Program-made: the position numbers and the translations under genes
Assembly (NCBI RefSeq): GCF_013389455.1
Contig: NZ_CP058278.1
Coordinates: forward strand, 3,782,001-3,846,000
From: Flavobacterium inviolabile
GTDB lineage: Bacteria > Bacteroidota > Bacteroidia > Flavobacteriales > Flavobacteriaceae
DNA length: 64,000 nt
Direction: 5' to 3'
Shown: one piece after another, positions 48,855 to 55,569 of the stretch
How the letters are laid out: every line of letters starts with the position of its first letter
Numbering within the stretch: the first letter of the stretch is position 1
The notes under the pieces: generated by a model
The model's database searches: none
The model's input: only the letters and a program-made list of their open reading frames with translations
What the model was told of the DNA's origin: nothing

Positions 48855-50198
48855 TTACCGCTTTAACGAAAAATGCCCGCTCACTTCTTCGATAATATTG
48901 TTATCGTTGTATTGCGCTACAAACCAATAGTCGTTTTCCGGCAGCGCTTTGCCGTTATGGGTACCGTCCCAGCCTTTCCCGTCCGGAGCAATATGCGTTA
49001 TGAATGTTCCCTTTTGATCAAAAATCTGGATGATGACCTCTTTTTTCCCTGATAACGAAGGAATATTCCAGACATCGTTATAACCGTCACCATTGGGCGT
49101 AAAATAAAGCGGATAATCCAACAGCAAAAGCCGTTTTACAGCCGTGCGGCAGCCAGAATTGTCTTTTACCCTTACAATATACCCGCCGCCGCTCACATTT
49201 TCAAAAAGATTACTTTCCTGATAACCGCTGTTGCCCAATTGGTATTGATAAACACTTTCCCGCAGCATGACAATTTGAACAGTAAACAGATTTACTCCCG
49301 TTATTCTTGTCCTGATCCGGGCAATAACCGGTTCATAAGCCGTTTCCAGTACAATTGTATCGTTAACAGCCCTGCAACCCGATTCGAAATTCAGCACCTC
49401 AACACGATACATCCCCGGGCGGTCTGCTGCAACAGTTCTTCCCGCGGCTGCCGGAATGACAGTTCCGTTATAAAACCATTTAAAGGCATGCGCTTCTTCC
49501 GGCAAACCGGAATCAAGAAGAACCGTCCTGACGGTATTATCGTTATTATCAATACAGATAAAAGGATTTGAAACACTCCATATAACCTGCGGTGTTGCGC
49601 CTATGATCACTTCTGCCGTTAATTTCCCGGTAGAACAGCCCTGAATGCTGAACCCTTCAATAAAATAGATCCCGGAAAGGCTCACAACGGTATTTTCCAG
49701 AACAGTGGTACCGTCTGTATCATAGAAAACATATTCCAAACCCGGAGTTGCCGTGTTTAAGGCATCTCTCAGTTCCACCGAATGACAATCGTATAACGGA
49801 ATATCGATCAGTTCCAGTTCAGGGATTTCCGGAGCTTTACTGATCGTTACCGGAAACAGCCCGGAAACCGAACCGTCCATTTTCCTGACGATTACGCTGT
49901 ATATTCCCGGCAAAAGATTCGGAAAGATATTATCCGGTGAATAGCTCAGTCCGCCGTCTATGGAATATTCCAAAGCAATGGTTGCGATGATTATGCTTCC
50001 GGTCTGCCATTCACAGCTGGGCTGCACGACCACTATTTCCAAAGGTTCCCTGTCTGTTCCTCTGCTGACATTCCGGTTGTGTTCCCACAACGGATAAACA
50101 CTCAATATGTTTGCTTTCATACTACTAAAACAAGGCAGTAACCAAACAAAAAATAACCCGATCAGGGTTTTACGGCTGATAATGAATAAAAATGGCAT
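48855..50198 (-). CDS. T9SS type B secreted protein
   Basis: 447 residues. Signal-type N-terminus (FLFIISRKTLIGLFFVWLLPCF). Middle region contains two or three Ig-like or SprB-like repeats with cysteine pairs: SVELRDALNTATPG, PFICIDNNDNTVRTVLLDSG and CRAVNDTIVLETAY. The last 85 residues (LYFTPNGDGYNDVWNIPSL, IQIFDQKGTFITHI, LPENDYWFVAQY) are the gliding-motility-associated type B sorting domain, so it is exported by T9SS and placed on the surface. It is transcribed away from the TPR-kinase gene; its own -7 element TAATTTTG lies at 50272-50265. Binding target unknown. Confidence 0.82.
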   Translation of the reverse strand: MPFLFIISRKTLIGLFFVWLLPCFSSMKANILSVYPLWEHNRNVSRGTDREPLEIVVVQPSCEWQTGSIIIATIALEYSIDGGLSYSPDNIFPNLLPGIYSVIVRKMDGSVSGLFPVTISKAPEIPELELIDIPLYDCHSVELRDALNTATPGLEYVFYDTDGTTVLENTVVSLSGIYFIEGFSIQGCSTGKLTAEVIIGATPQVIWSVSNPFICIDNNDNTVRTVLLDSGLPEEAHAFKWFYNGTVIPAAAGRTVAADRPGMYRVEVLNFESGCRAVNDTIVLETAYEPVIARIRTRITGVNLFTVQIVMLRESVYQYQLGNSGYQESNLFENVSGGGYIVRVKDNSGCRTAVKRLLLLDYPLYFTPNGDGYNDVWNIPSLSGKKEVIIQIFDQKGTFITHIAPDGKGWDGTHNGKALPENDYWFVAQYNDNNIIEEVSGHFSLKR

Positions 50199-50272: not shown

Positions 50273-50336
50273 CACAACTGCTAAAAAAAGTTGCAGCACT
50301 CCTTTTCAAAAGCCCGTTTTACAGCACTTTTCCCAA

Positions 50337-50401
50337 ATCCTAAGTCAAAACGATCAAATTCTAATTCACATCTGCTCAGGTCGCAACTTATTTTATATTT
50401 G
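50337..50401 (+). promoter_or_regulatory. Predicted LytTR operator and promoter of the TPR-kinase gene
   Basis: Two 11-bp direct repeats, ATCCTAAGTCA (50337-50347) and ATTCTAATTCA (50358-50368), with a 21-bp period, then 25 nt and a perfect -7 TATATTTG (50394-50401). No -33 TTG is present, which fits an activator-dependent promoter. The same layout occurs at 53217-53281. LytTR regulators bind paired direct repeats two helical turns apart. Confidence 0.6.
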
Positions 50402-50419
50402 CATATAAAGATTCTCAAA

Positions 50420-52450
50420 ATGCATTACACCCCAGCTAAAGCAACCCAAAAGCCATTTTTACGAATCGCCGTTGCCGCGTTTTTGCTACTGAACGTGCTG
50501 TCTTCCGGATTTGCCCAGGAAAATACGATTCCGGAACTGAAATCCGGTTTAAAAACGGTCAAAACGGACACTGCCAAAGTCACTATTCTCAATAAAATAG
50601 CCCATATATTCCGGGAAAGCAACTCCGACTCCACGCTTTTTTACGCTAAAAAAGCCGCGGCACTGGCGCAAAAAAACGGCGATCATTACGGTCTGGCCAT
50701 CGCCTGTATTAATATTGGCAATGCTAACATTATCAGCAGTAATTATGCCGAGGCACTGAAAAATTTTGAACAGGCCAAAGCACTTTTTACCGACCTGTTA
50801 ACCCATCCGGCGGCAACGGCCGTAACCCAAAACCAGATTAGGAACGGTCTGGCAAGATCCTACGGCAGCTGCGGCATTGTCTATTCCGAACAGAACGACT
50901 ATTCCAATGCCTTACAGCATTATTTTAAGGCTTTAAAAATGTATCAGGAAACCGGGGAGAAAAAAAGCATTTCCAAAGTGTACAACAACATCGGGATTAT
51001 CTATAAGGTCCTGGAAGAAAACAACAAGGCACTCACCTATTTATCGAAAGCCTATGCGCTGCAAACGGAAATGGGAGAAGAATCGGCTCCCGTAACCTTA
51101 ATGAATATCGGAACGATTTATTTCAAACAGAAAAAAGACAAGCAGGCTTTACAGTATTACAATACCGCCATGTCCCTTTTTGAAAAAACAAACAACAACA
51201 GAGGGAAAGCATTATTGTTCAACAACCTGGGAGAATTCTACTGCAGCCATCAATCGTATGCTAAAGCGCTGGATTTTTACAACAAAGCCATGGTTTTGTA
51301 TACGGAACTGGACAATAAAATGGGAACAGCTTCCGTACAATACAACATCGGGACACTTTATCTGGAACAAAAAGACCTTTCAAAAGCATTATCCTACACC
51401 TCAGCATCGTTAATGACCGCCCGAGAAATCAACATGCTGGCACAGGTAAAGTCCTCCGAAAAACAGCTGAGTGATATTTATGCTTTACAGCAGGATTACA
51501 AAAATGCTTTATCGCATTATAAAGAATATGTTGCTGCCAAAGACAGTATTGACAATAAAGAAAACACCAAAAAATTACTCCGCGTAGAGCTGAATGCCGA
51601 GTTTCAGAAAAAAGAGGCTTTGCAAAAAATTGAAATGGAGAAAAAGGAAGCCGTATTAGTGGAACAAAACAAAAGCCATAAATTGTTTACGCTGTTCTCC
51701 GTGATTGGTACCTTATTGCTGTTGGGGCTGATTTTCGTTACCTACAACAGACTGCAGATCAAACGCCGTTTAACCCTGCAAAAAGAAGTAGCCGAATACG
51801 AACAAAAAGCACTGCACCTTCAAATGAACCCGCATTTTGTTTTTAACTGTCTCGGTTCCATATCCAGCTTTATTGTTCAGAACGGAACGGATTCTGCCAT
51901 AAAATATTTATCCAAATTTTCCAAGCTAATGCGCCTCACCCTGGAATATTCCAAAGGTTCCCTGATCCCGATCGACAAAGAGATTGACAGCCTTCAGAAT
52001 TACCTGGAACTGGAACAATTGCGCTTTAATAAAAAATTTGATTTTGCCATTACAACAAGTCCGCTCATCGAGGACGATATGGCTTTACCGCCTTTATTGA
52101 TCCAGCCGTTTGTCGAAAATGCCATTCTTCACGGCCTGGTGCCCAAACAGGGAAGCGGTAAAATTGAGATCAGTTTCAATGTAGAAAACAACCAGTTGGT
52201 CTGCAGCATTACCGATGACGGAATCGGTATTTCCAAATCGAAAGCCATGAAGGAAAATTCCGTGACCGCACACAAATCGATGGCTTTGGAGATCACCAAG
52301 AAAAGACTGGAAATGATGGAAGCCACAACATCACAGTCGGCACACGTAAGTATTTCCGACTTCCTGGATGAGAACAAAGAACCTTACGGGACCAGGGTGG
52401 TTATTTACCTGCCCATTCAATACACTTCAGACACTAAAATCAGAATCTAA
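50420..52450 (+). CDS. TPR-containing LytS-type sensor histidine kinase
   Basis: 676 residues from the ATG at 50420, which gives a signal peptide (FLRIAVAAFLLLNVLSSGFA); the longer frame begins upstream of the promoter. Residues about 60-380 are TPR repeats (for example RNGLARSYGSCGIVYSEQND, ALLFNNLGEFYCSHQSYAKA), one membrane helix at about 422-441, a coiled-coil linker, then the HisKA_7TM-less LytS-type kinase: LQMNPHFVFN (H472) with the HATPase motifs ENAILHGLV and DDGIGIS. The periplasmic TPR domain likely senses a protein or peptide. Overlaps the LytTR regulator gene by 1 nt. Confidence 0.88.
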   Translation: MHYTPAKATQKPFLRIAVAAFLLLNVLSSGFAQENTIPELKSGLKTVKTDTAKVTILNKIAHIFRESNSDSTLFYAKKAAALAQKNGDHYGLAIACINIGNANIISSNYAEALKNFEQAKALFTDLLTHPAATAVTQNQIRNGLARSYGSCGIVYSEQNDYSNALQHYFKALKMYQETGEKKSISKVYNNIGIIYKVLEENNKALTYLSKAYALQTEMGEESAPVTLMNIGTIYFKQKKDKQALQYYNTAMSLFEKTNNNRGKALLFNNLGEFYCSHQSYAKALDFYNKAMVLYTELDNKMGTASVQYNIGTLYLEQKDLSKALSYTSASLMTAREINMLAQVKSSEKQLSDIYALQQDYKNALSHYKEYVAAKDSIDNKENTKKLLRVELNAEFQKKEALQKIEMEKKEAVLVEQNKSHKLFTLFSVIGTLLLLGLIFVTYNRLQIKRRLTLQKEVAEYEQKALHLQMNPHFVFNCLGSISSFIVQNGTDSAIKYLSKFSKLMRLTLEYSKGSLIPIDKEIDSLQNYLELEQLRFNKKFDFAITTSPLIEDDMALPPLLIQPFVENAILHGLVPKQGSGKIEISFNVENNQLVCSITDDGIGISKSKAMKENSVTAHKSMALEITKKRLEMMEATTSQSAHVSISDFLDENKEPYGTRVVIYLPIQYTSDTKIRI

Positions 52451-53211
52451 TGATAACAGCACTATTAATCGACGACGACAAACATTTACGAAAAGGCATG
52501 AAAAGCCTTTTGAACCGCTATGCTTCCGAAATTACTATAATCGGGGAAGCCGAAAGCGTAAAAACAGGCATTATCGCACTCGAAAAATACAAACCACAGG
52601 TTGTTTTCCTTGATATCCATCTGTCGGACGGTACCGGGTTTGACATCCTGGAACAGGTTGCCAAAACCAATGAAAAAACCACCTCCCATATTGTTTTTAT
52701 TACCGCTCATGAGCAATATGCCTTAAAGGCTTTTAAATTCAGCGCGCTGGATTTCCTGCTAAAACCGGTTGATCCCGAAGAGCTTCAAAAAGCCGTGTTA
52801 AAGGTAAAAGACGCTATGGAGAAAAATACGTCTTTTGCCCATATTGATCTACTGCTGGAGAATATCCGCAAAAAAGTAGACAATTTTAAACGAATCGCGC
52901 TTTCGACCTCTACCGGCATTCATCTTTTCGACATCAGCGATATTATCCGCTGTGAAGCCCAGGACAATTATACCAAGTTTTATATCAAAGACCATAAAAC
53001 GCTGCTCATTTCCAAAACACTGAAAGAGTATGAAGAACTGCTCACCCAGCATGGCTTTGAGCGCATTCATCAGTCGCATTTAATCAACCTTGCCTATCTG
53101 AAATCGTATATCAAAAATGACGGCGGCTATGTGATCATGTCCGACAACAGCAACCTGCCTATTGCACAACGCAAAAAAGAAAGGCTCCAGGAACTGATTA
53201 AATCATTCTAA
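52450..53211 (+). CDS. LytTR-family response regulator
   Basis: 253 residues. Receiver: LLIDDDKHLRKG with the acidic triad and phospho-acceptor D55 in VVFLDIHLSDG. LytTR DNA-binding domain from about residue 148: IALSTSTGIHLFDISDIIRCEAQDNYTKFYI, KTLKEYEELLTQHGFERIHQSHLIN, IAQRKKERLQEL. It is the partner of the overlapping TPR-kinase. A direct-repeat pair of the expected geometry lies in front of the kinase gene and right after this gene, so it probably controls both and itself. Confidence 0.93.
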   Translation: MITALLIDDDKHLRKGMKSLLNRYASEITIIGEAESVKTGIIALEKYKPQVVFLDIHLSDGTGFDILEQVAKTNEKTTSHIVFITAHEQYALKAFKFSALDFLLKPVDPEELQKAVLKVKDAMEKNTSFAHIDLLLENIRKKVDNFKRIALSTSTGIHLFDISDIIRCEAQDNYTKFYIKDHKTLLISKTLKEYEELLTQHGFERIHQSHLINLAYLKSYIKNDGGYVIMSDNSNLPIAQRKKERLQELIKSF

Positions 53212-53281
53212 ATCAAATTCTAAGTCATAATCGTCGAATTCTTAATCATCCAAAATGAAACTGTAATAGCTCCTAATTTTG
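53205..53281 (+). promoter_or_regulatory. Predicted LytTR operator and promoter of the leucine-rich-repeat gene
   Basis: Repeats ATTCTAAGTCA (53217-53227) and ATTCTTAATCA (53238-53248), 21-bp period, then 25 nt and a perfect -7 TAATTTTG (53274-53281). A third partial copy ATTCTAAATCA (53205-53215) overlaps the end of the LytTR gene. The geometry is the same, base for base, as before the kinase gene. Confidence 0.6.
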
Positions 53282-53307: not shown

Positions 53308-55569
53308 ATGAAAAAAACTTTACTCTTTCTATTGCTATACTCCGGTATCGCATCTGCCCAGATTGTAACCATTCCGGATGCTAATTTTAAAAATAAGCTG
53401 ATCGCATCGGGAATAGATACAAATAACGACGGGAATATCCAGCTAACGGAAGCTCAGGCCGTAACGAACTTAAATGTGACCAATGCGAACATTGCTTCTC
53501 TTACCGGTATCGCAGCATTCACCAATTTACAGACACTTAGCTGTTCTGCCAATAACCTGACAACCCTAGACATCAGCAGCTTAGCAAATCTGGTTAACCT
53601 GATTTGTTTTGACAACAATATTACAGCGATCACTGCGGTAGCTTCTCCTAATCTTAAAACGCTGTCCTGTTATAACAATGCCTTAACCAGTATTGATCTT
53701 TCGCTGTTTGTAAATTTAGAATTCCTGTCCATCAAACACAATCAGCTAACCGTTTTAAATACAACCGGCCTGACGGCACTGCGCCATCTGGATGCCGGCT
53801 TTAACAACATGACCACCATTACCGTTGCAGACAAGCCCAACCTGGTTACGCTTTATTTAGGTTATAATCAGCTGACTTCTGTTACCCTGACAAACCTTCC
53901 GCACGCTTATAAAATCAATGTTCAGGACAACCAGCTTACTTCCCTGGATCTGTCATCCTGCGCTTATGAGCCTTACCTGAATAATGTTTCGAATGCTTCG
54001 GTATATGATATTGGCTGTAATAATAATTTAGGGTTAATCTATATCAATTTAAAGAACGGCTTCCCGAATCCGCAAGTAGAACTGATGTCTTCCAATTTAG
54101 CCGATCTGCCGCAATATATCTGTACGGACGAAAACGACACTATTATTGCAAACAATACCTGGTACAATACCGATTCACAGTTTTCAACCTATTGTAATTT
54201 TACACCGGGCGGCAATTACAACACCATCACCGGAACATTAACATACGATGCCAATAATAATGGCTGTGATGCTAACGACGGCCTGTTCCAGAATATCAAA
54301 GTAAGTATTAATGACGGAACAACTTCCGGAGCTACTTTTAGCAATAGCAGCGGTAATTATACTTTTTATGTAACACAACCGAATCTGACACTGACACCTC
54401 AGTTTGATTCTCCTTATTTTACCGTTTCTCCTGCTGCAACAGCAACAGTAAACTTCCCGGTTAACAACAATTCCACTCAAACACAGGATTTCTGCATTAC
54501 TGCCAATGGGGTACATCCGGACCTGGAAATCGTACTCAGCCCGGATAACGATGCCCGACCGGGATTTGACGCCTATTACAACCTGGTTTACAGAAATAAA
54601 GGAACCGAAATAGCATCCGGCACCATCAACCTGGCTTTTGACGATACTCTTATGGATTTTATGTACAGCAACCAGGCCGCCACACCAGCAACCGGTTCGC
54701 TATCCTGGAATTACACCAACCTGTTACCATTTGAAACACGCATTATAAAAATAGGATTTACCATTAATACTCCTACTGCCACGCCACCGGTTAACAGCGG
54801 TGATAGCCTTCCTTTTACAGTAACAATCAATCCGGTTACAGCCGATGATACTCCGGCAGACAATACTTTTGTATTGAACCAGCTGGTCGTGAATTCTTTT
54901 GATCCGAATGACAAAACCTGTCTGGAAGGCAATCGTATTGCCCTTACAAAAGTGGGCGATTACCTGCACTATAACATTCGTTTTGAAAATACCGGTTCTG
55001 CTTCCGCTATTAATGTAGTGGTAAAAGACATGATCGATTTAGACAAGTTGGATATTAATTCTTTACAGGTACTGTACAACTCCCATCCGGTTAACACACA
55101 AATCAGAGGCAATAAGGTAGAATTCATTTTTGAGAACATCAACCTTTCTTCTGCCAATCTGTATCCGGAAGGAGCACATGGAAATATCCTTTTCAAGATA
55201 AGATCCAAAAACAACCTGGTTATAGGGGATGTGATTACCAATGAAGCCGCTATCTATTTTGACTACAACCACCCTATCAACACGGATGAAGCCCGAACAG
55301 TGGTTGAAAATCTTTTAGGAGGTCAGGATTTCACTATCGATAAAAGCATCAGTATTTTTCCAAATCCTGCCAGCGATATCCTGAATATCAAAGCAGACAA
55401 CACTATTAAATCCATCCTATTGTATGACCTGCAGGGAAGACTTTTAATGACCAGTCTTCACAATGCAACAGAAACGTATTTAAACATCACTGATAAATCT
55501 TCCGGAATATACCTCATTAAAGTTATCTCCGAATCCGGAAGCAAAATCGAAAAAATTGTGAAGCAATAA
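53308..55569 (+). CDS. T9SS type A secreted leucine-rich-repeat protein
   Basis: 753 residues, signal peptide MKKTLLFLLLYSGIASAQ. Residues about 45-255 contain leucine-rich repeats of about 20-21 residues (LSCSANNLTTLDISSLANL, LSCYNNALTSIDLS, LYLGYNQLTSVTL). Residues about 300-390 look like an SdrD/CNA-B-type fold, and about 395-660 a DUF7619-type repeat region (DPNDKTCLEGNRIALTKVGDYLHYNIRFENTG). The C-terminus (SIFPNPASDILNIKADN, ILLYDLQGRLLMT, SSGIYLIKV) is the type A sorting domain. Placed on the surface by T9SS; likely a ligand-binding or adhesin role. Its promoter matches the kinase promoter, so it is the predicted main target. Confidence 0.85.
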   Translation: MKKTLLFLLLYSGIASAQIVTIPDANFKNKLIASGIDTNNDGNIQLTEAQAVTNLNVTNANIASLTGIAAFTNLQTLSCSANNLTTLDISSLANLVNLICFDNNITAITAVASPNLKTLSCYNNALTSIDLSLFVNLEFLSIKHNQLTVLNTTGLTALRHLDAGFNNMTTITVADKPNLVTLYLGYNQLTSVTLTNLPHAYKINVQDNQLTSLDLSSCAYEPYLNNVSNASVYDIGCNNNLGLIYINLKNGFPNPQVELMSSNLADLPQYICTDENDTIIANNTWYNTDSQFSTYCNFTPGGNYNTITGTLTYDANNNGCDANDGLFQNIKVSINDGTTSGATFSNSSGNYTFYVTQPNLTLTPQFDSPYFTVSPAATATVNFPVNNNSTQTQDFCITANGVHPDLEIVLSPDNDARPGFDAYYNLVYRNKGTEIASGTINLAFDDTLMDFMYSNQAATPATGSLSWNYTNLLPFETRIIKIGFTINTPTATPPVNSGDSLPFTVTINPVTADDTPADNTFVLNQLVVNSFDPNDKTCLEGNRIALTKVGDYLHYNIRFENTGSASAINVVVKDMIDLDKLDINSLQVLYNSHPVNTQIRGNKVEFIFENINLSSANLYPEGAHGNILFKIRSKNNLVIGDVITNEAAIYFDYNHPINTDEARTVVENLLGGQDFTIDKSISIFPNPASDILNIKADNTIKSILLYDLQGRLLMTSLHNATETYLNITDKSSGIYLIKVISESGSKIEKIVKQ

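Follow-up and report, generated by a model that had tools for sequence, protein, structure and literature searches.

Published operators of LytTR regulators consist of 9-bp repeats separated mostly by 12-bp spacers, giving a period of 21 bp (PMC6193735), and binding to direct repeats of like spacing has been described for HdrR, upstream of its own operon (PMC6193735), and for AgrA (PMC4227749). In the HdrRM and BrsRM systems of Streptococcus mutans and their relatives, the direct repeats are mostly 21 bp apart start-to-start and lie just upstream of the promoter of the regulator's own operon; positive autoregulation was shown for HdrR, and ACATCTTAT-12 bp-ACCTCTTAT is an example of the repeats (PMC6193735). 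A comparable arrangement was examined in a 64,000-nucleotide stretch of the Flavobacterium inviolabile genome (contig NZ_CP058278.1, positions 3,782,001 to 3,846,000; referred to here as the window), where one pair of direct repeats precedes an operon for a TPR sensor kinase and a LytTR response regulator, and a second pair separates the regulator gene from a gene for a secreted leucine-rich-repeat (LRR) protein. It is very likely that these repeat pairs are the operators of the LytTR regulator encoded between them, which would activate its own operon and the LRR gene. Judged from the DNA and its relatives, the two pairs appear to be real and conserved operators of the LytTR direct-repeat type.

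The four repeat copies described in an earlier note on this DNA were confirmed in the sequence (ATCCTAAGTCA at 50337–50347 and ATTCTAATTCA at 50358–50368; ATTCTAAGTCA at 53217–53227 and ATTCTTAATCA at 53238–53248), as were the start-to-start distance of 21 bp in both pairs, the -7 boxes TATATTTG (50394–50401, + strand) and TAATTTTG (53274–53281, + strand), each 26 bp past the last repeat base, and, by eye, the lack of a -33 TTG at both promoters. Two direct repeats ~21 bp apart thus stand before each putative target promoter, as in known LytTR-type direct-repeat operators. However, while the repeats and their spacing had been recognised correctly, their start had been placed 2 bases too far downstream. 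The conserved half-site is RAATTCTAA followed by nTCAAA, so that the operators span 50335–50366 and 53215–53246, both on the + strand. The first, before the kinase-regulator operon, comprises half-sites at 50335–50343 (AAATCCTAA) and 50356–50364 (AAATTCTAA), 21 bp apart, and gives the best matrix score of the window (32.8). The second, between the stop codon of the regulator gene and the LRR gene, comprises half-sites at 53215–53223 (AAATTCTAA) and 53236–53244 (GAATTCTTA) and scores 22.1. Each -7 box begins 38 bp past the start of the second half-site. A further repeat copy, ATTCTAAATCA at 53205–53215, overlaps the stop codon of the regulator gene, 12 bp ahead of the second operator; it is outside the 21-bp register and was left out of the operator.

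The kinase gene (50420–52450, + strand) encodes 676 amino acids (aa) from the ATG at 50420, with TPR repeats and LytS-type His_kinase/HATPase_c domains (Pfam). It is followed by the gene for the presumed operator-binding protein (52450–53211, + strand; 253 aa), in which a receiver domain precedes a LytTR DNA-binding domain (Pfam), the domain order of LytTR-family response regulators. The LRR gene (53308–55569, + strand) encodes a secreted protein of 753 aa with DUF7619 and a C-terminal sorting domain of the type IX secretion system (T9SS; Por_Secre_tail, 50.1 bits; Pfam), and as a predicted target carrying such a domain it fits a regulon of T9SS cargo. It was the sole DUF7619 match found in a search of the window's genome, where 77 Por_Secre_tail matches were above cut-off.

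The S. mutans systems pair a LytTR protein with a membrane inhibitor and have a -35 element 4–11 bp after the repeats (PMC6193735), whereas the system in the window pairs a kinase with a receiver-LytTR protein, has AT-rich half-sites and lacks a -33 TTG, and its putative targets are T9SS cargo genes. With a TPR histidine kinase and not a membrane inhibitor as the regulator's partner, it is not a LytTR regulatory system (LRS) of the S. mutans type. When AATTCTAAT was compared by eye with one published repeat, ACCTCTTAT, 6 of 9 positions were shared. AgrC/AgrA of Staphylococcus aureus has a quorum-sensing kinase and a different half-site, whereas the window has a TPR kinase and a T9SS target. 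In the same phylum, the -7 box TATCTTTG of 'LRS-like' operons of Bacteroides thetaiotaomicron and Bacteroides ovatus follows repeats predicted as TCCGGTATTCA-11 bp-ACCGGAAATCA, with a period of 22 bp (PMC6193735, Table 3). The 3' part of this half-site resembles that in the window (AnTCA, by eye), but the 5' half differs, and these operons, themselves predicted, have a membrane-bound regulator, an NfeD/DUF2154 partner and a listed -33 element (PMC6193735). Two-component control connected with the T9SS is also described for PorX/PorY/SigP of Porphyromonas gingivalis (PMC4800418); however, it acts there on secretion-machinery genes via an extracytoplasmic function (ECF) sigma factor, and not on cargo genes via LytTR direct repeats.

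The conservation of the operator was examined in 120 loci, namely 39 orthologous loci from 150 genomes of the genus, 80 named loci (the best 80 of 104 relatives, among which further cassette copies may have been missed) and the window. One locus with no kinase on its stretch (L138) was dropped, leaving 119 with an upstream kinase match, a few of them trimmed by contig ends, and merging 17 duplicate regulator sequences (locus present in two collections, or identical) gave 102 distinct loci. The kinase upstream region was not readable in 5 of these, and 97 kinase promoters were compared. The nearest named relatives are Flavobacterium records, headed by F. noncentrifugens with 88% regulator identity (among the best 80 of 104). 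Gene order is retained: in 101 of the 102 loci, a stretch resembling the LRR protein begins at most 3 kb beyond the regulator gene, and the remaining locus (L154) sits near a contig end.

In a motif-free test, 10-base words recurring with at most 1 mismatch were counted at each spacing from 11 to 60. A spacing of 21 was found in the kinase upstream regions of 43 of 97 loci, against 5 for the next best spacing and a mean of 1.1 in dinucleotide shuffles; downstream of the regulator, 21 was again the best spacing (12/102), followed by the double spacing of 42 (9/102). A 32-bp operator matrix, trained on the kinase upstream regions themselves, exceeded a threshold of 12 in 93 of these 97 training regions, but in only one of the 97 reversed sequences, and the maximum among 995 mononucleotide-shuffled regions was 9.9. 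Of the four sub-threshold kinase promoters, three have TTTCTC/TTTACTC-like pairs at 21 bp and one (L054) has a shifted AATTCT pair (by eye). Over 52 sequences, the two half-sites have an information content of 1.42 and 1.35 bits per base, and the flanks of 0.20 and 0.26. The loss of the repeats from promoters of otherwise conserved genes, which the earlier note had named as the observation that would speak against its model, was therefore not seen at the kinase, where operator, period and -7 distance are kept in 93 of 97 loci. An operator that stands before the regulator's own operon and is conserved with it, here and before four kinase homologues in other genera, is the arrangement expected of an autoregulated two-component system, and autoregulation is predicted.

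A -7 box of the form TAnnTTT[GA] was found at fixed phase in 91 of the 93 operator-bearing kinase promoters; measured from where the second half-site starts, the distance is 38/39 bp in 80 promoters and 59/60 bp in 11. The extra 21 bp in these 11 promoters contain a third element with 6–8 of 9 bases matching the second half-site, and the promoter-proximal element of such three-element operators is at the usual distance from the -7 box. Three half-site-like elements in 21-bp steps were seen in L038, L079, L084, L086, L087, L090, L092, L105, L126, L132 and L137, and also at L221:1014-1064. Before the LRR gene, the box is at 38/39 bp in 35 of 37 operator-bearing loci if the first box is counted, and in 36 if a box at the fixed offset is required. 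There is no enrichment of a -33 TTG, either in kinase promoters (23/91, background 0.246 per 13 bases) or in LRR promoters (3/36, background 0.219). The operator occupies the position expected for a -33 element, a geometry that suggests an activator site.

Sites of repressors more often overlap the -7 box. Although some LytTR regulators can repress, as does PlnD (PMC2714321), and adjacency to the regulator's own operon says nothing on sign, repression of both promoters is unlikely here, as the operator is placed ahead of the -7 box, at fixed helical phase and in the -33 position, and a third half-site is found only as a further 21-bp step, as for an activator that contacts polymerase. In the activation model, a phosphorylated regulator dimer would bind the two half-sites of RAATTCTAA-N12-RAATTCTAA, 21 bp apart and on the same helix face, and the promoter-proximal half-site, 38–39 bp before the -7 box, would allow recruitment of RNA polymerase to promoters without a -33 element. 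Binding at the first operator would lead to positive autoregulation of the TPR-kinase/regulator operon and binding at the second would switch on the adjacent T9SS-secreted LRR gene, while in relatives that have further sites the regulator would also control additional T9SS-secreted surface proteins.

With up to 3 mismatches allowed, the spaced pattern matched the window twice, whereas 100 shuffles gave 0.03 matches on average and never 2. The whole 3.9 Mb genome gave 4 matches (reversed pattern, 0), of which the two window operators, with 1 mismatch each, are by far the best. The other two have 3 mismatches each and matrix scores of -0.9 and -1.6, and were rejected. A looser pattern (2 mismatches) gave 131 matches against 106 in the reversed control and was rejected. 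A matrix match at 2533 on the minus strand of the window (score 20.8) is inside a glycosyltransferase-like open reading frame (ORF) and was taken as chance; from this match, the threshold of 12 is exceeded by chance about once per 128 kb of window-type DNA.

A strict pattern of 30 bases, built from the operators of the cassette, identified 77 sites in 47 of 398 genomes of the genus, against 2 sites in the reversed control (27 against 1 in the 150-genome subset). In 299 genomes of the family it identified 8 sites (control, 1), 4 of which precede kinase homologues of 40–43% identity in other genera. Stray matches do occur in AT-rich sequence, as seen at 2533 and in a repeat array in genome G529. 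However, given the expectation of 0.03 for the window, the excess over the genus control and a register that is conserved across the genus and in other genera, it is exceedingly improbable that the repeats are a functionless product of chance or tandem duplication in AT-rich intergenic DNA. One family site, L234 in G176, from another genus, precedes a different histidine-kinase gene.

Of the 77 sites, 39 belong to the cassette: 31 precede the kinase gene, and 8 are in the interval that separates the regulator gene from the LRR gene. Of these 39, 14 were assigned by coordinates and the rest by homology. Of the other 38, 30 precede 29 proteins that were scanned, and 8 had no usable downstream ORF (L219, L223, three in L291, L262, L267 and L299). 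Among the 29 proteins, 24 have a T9SS sorting domain (above the cut-off for Por_Secre_tail or CHU_C) and 12 have DUF7619, and the 5 without a sorting domain are FtsZ, a major facilitator superfamily (MFS) transporter, a tRNA_anti-like protein and two lipoprotein-like proteins (by eye). The binomial probability of this T9SS excess is <1e-26 at a background of 2–5%, a figure estimated from the 77 genes of one genome, and the targets are not independent, as several are paralogues from the same genome (5/24 in G522, 3/24 in G605). The nearest relative, G605, carries three more LRR-DUF7619 genes with an operator (L264:500-5447, L266), compared with the one DUF7619 match in the window's genome. In two genomes, a gene for a galactose-binding-like T9SS protein near the cassette has its own operator (L260:8113, L216:636).

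The 24 T9SS targets are spread over 15 genomes, and a regulator of at least 71% identity is encoded in 14 of these. In the 150-genome set, non-cassette sites before T9SS genes were found in 5 of the 35 genomes with a regulator orthologue and in 1 of the 115 without (p 0.003). Co-occurrence of the regulator with any strict site (15/35 against 3/115, p 1e-8) is partly built in, as most sites are in the cassette itself, and the non-cassette sites were used instead. No regulator of more than 42% identity was found in G028, G039, G491, G529 or G615, the genomes whose sole strict sites belong neither to the cassette nor to T9SS genes. In G028, the site in L219 (G028:C59, 998, minus strand) is a perfect operator with a -7 box, upstream of a citrate-synthase-like ORF and with no kinase behind it; as G028 lacks a regulator orthologue, it looks like the leftover of a lost cassette.

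It is quite improbable that a different LytTR protein of the same cell binds the repeats, with the encoded regulator acting only elsewhere. The window's genome does contain 18 scored matches to the regulator, itself included, some possibly through the receiver domain alone, and one genome (G100) has sites without the cassette. However, the sites lie on either side of the regulator gene and are retained together with it, the extra T9SS sites are almost all in orthologue-bearing genomes, the five genomes with neither cassette nor T9SS sites all lack an orthologue, and the operator type shifts in the clade in which residues of the regulator's contact region shift (see below). In addition, the genome's own paralogue pair, of 40% identity, has no such operator at either place (matrix scores -5.4 and -11.9).

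Several observations weigh against activation of both promoters by the encoded regulator. No convincing third site was found in the window's own genome by the pattern and matrix scans, and the direction of regulation, activation rather than repression, is read solely from the geometry of the promoters. No operator precedes the LRR gene in 65 of the 102 loci, and as the loci are related by descent, locus counts do not equal independent events. Among the 38 non-cassette strict sites, 15 have no -7 box at 38–40 or 59 bp, compared with 1 of 25 cassette sites likewise examined, and for the T9SS targets such a box is present in 17 of 24 and lacking in 7. Finally, no orthologous kinase or regulator was found in G100 (89% complete), which has four strict sites in three promoters; another regulator may read the motif there, or the assembly may have a gap. 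These G100 sites (L220, L221, L222) precede LRR, T9SS and lipoprotein-like genes.

The absence of the LRR-gene operator is uneven. It is missing in all 40 loci with a TAAT first half-site and in 18 of 52 loci of the window's type, 3 of which resemble weak versions. In the loci without it, the LRR gene follows the regulator gene at a median of 21–32 bp and is probably cotranscribed with it. Comparison lends good support to the model of the earlier note, by conservation, association with the regulator and T9SS targets, except that the operator before the LRR gene is not universal, being above the matrix threshold in 37 of 102 regulator-LRR intervals. The reading given there appears right in substance, with a half-site 2 bases longer and, in relatives, a wider predicted regulon.

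In one clade the operator is changed to AATAATAA, and regulator residues near known LytTR DNA contacts are changed also. The clade comprises 44 rows with an SH-aLRT of 100 in a quick tree, essentially a single origin of the second operator type. The operator core changes from TTCTAA to TAATAA, and in the regulator 241 changes from R to S, 172 from D to V/I/A/G and 176 from K mostly to Q/E. As exceptions within the clade, L081 and L132 keep the second-type residues with a TACT second half-site, and in the second-type copy of G522 a TAAT half-site is combined with a TACT half-site. Given the single origin, the residue differences amount to one event, and covariation of operator and regulator was rejected as independent evidence. 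The AgrA contacts with DNA are H169, N201 and R233 (PMC11424843). In a structural alignment, residues 144–246 of the regulator match 138–238 of DNA-bound AgrA in fold, while neither phmmer nor a profile gave a sequence alignment of the domain with AgrA. The mapping of 241 to R233 and of 175–176 to H169 is taken from the ends of the structural alignment and a shared motif (FERIHQS/FFRCHNS), and is not residue-by-residue.

At least two readable kinase promoters were available in 15 multi-copy genomes, 12 from the first set (13 listed, one promoter cut) plus G522, G571 and G618. In every one of them, a single copy combines second-type residues with the second-type operator, next to one or two first-type copies, although in two genomes (L152, L054) the first-type call is based on a sub-threshold site, the second-type operator of G522 is mixed, and copies missing from assemblies or outside the best 80 of 104 relatives are invisible to this count. 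Three copies were found in G145, G522 and G618. A single second-type copy per genome is expected if duplicated systems are insulated via their operators, but the pattern goes back to a single evolutionary switch. It is fairly likely that the cassette has been duplicated in Flavobacterium, with the copies insulated by the paired change in regulator residues and operator core, and that two, sometimes three, systems operate in one cell without cross-talk. If so, the copies would be a natural, genus-wide example of how LytTR specificity is encoded, and the system of the window would lie immediately outside the clade that switched. Tandem cassettes ~7 kb apart were seen in L313 (G618) and L314 (G522), and also in L137/L152, one of the second type and one of a degenerate first type (TTCTC/TACTC) with regulator T176; the degenerate copies are perhaps a third specificity. 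The strict AATAATAA pattern found 10 sites in the 150 genomes against 3 in the control, and as 8 of the 10 are kinase promoters, a wider regulon of the second operator type was rejected, with no extra targets supported.

To our knowledge, few Bacteroidota LytTR two-component pairs have an assigned operator or target. In searches of the open-access literature, covered by titles and the starts of abstracts, no description of this operator or regulon was found. LytTR proteins are mentioned in two other Flavobacterium papers, without operators in the parts examined (PMC10057207, PMC10197871). A transcriptome study of F. psychrophilum reported 17 tandem LRR genes induced by fish plasma, and the word LytTR is absent from its text (PMC9723704). 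The present analysis provides an operator defined to the base, a rule for its promoters (the -7 box at a fixed distance, without a -33 TTG) and a set of T9SS-secreted surface proteins as the predicted regulon, so that the targets of these TPR kinases can be tested. With its two types, found in orthologues and also in co-resident paralogues, the operator offers a ready data set for the LytTR DNA-recognition code.

On the other side of the kinase operon, a gene for a CHU_C-type T9SS protein (48855–50198, minus strand) is transcribed divergently from it, and the two have a common upstream region.

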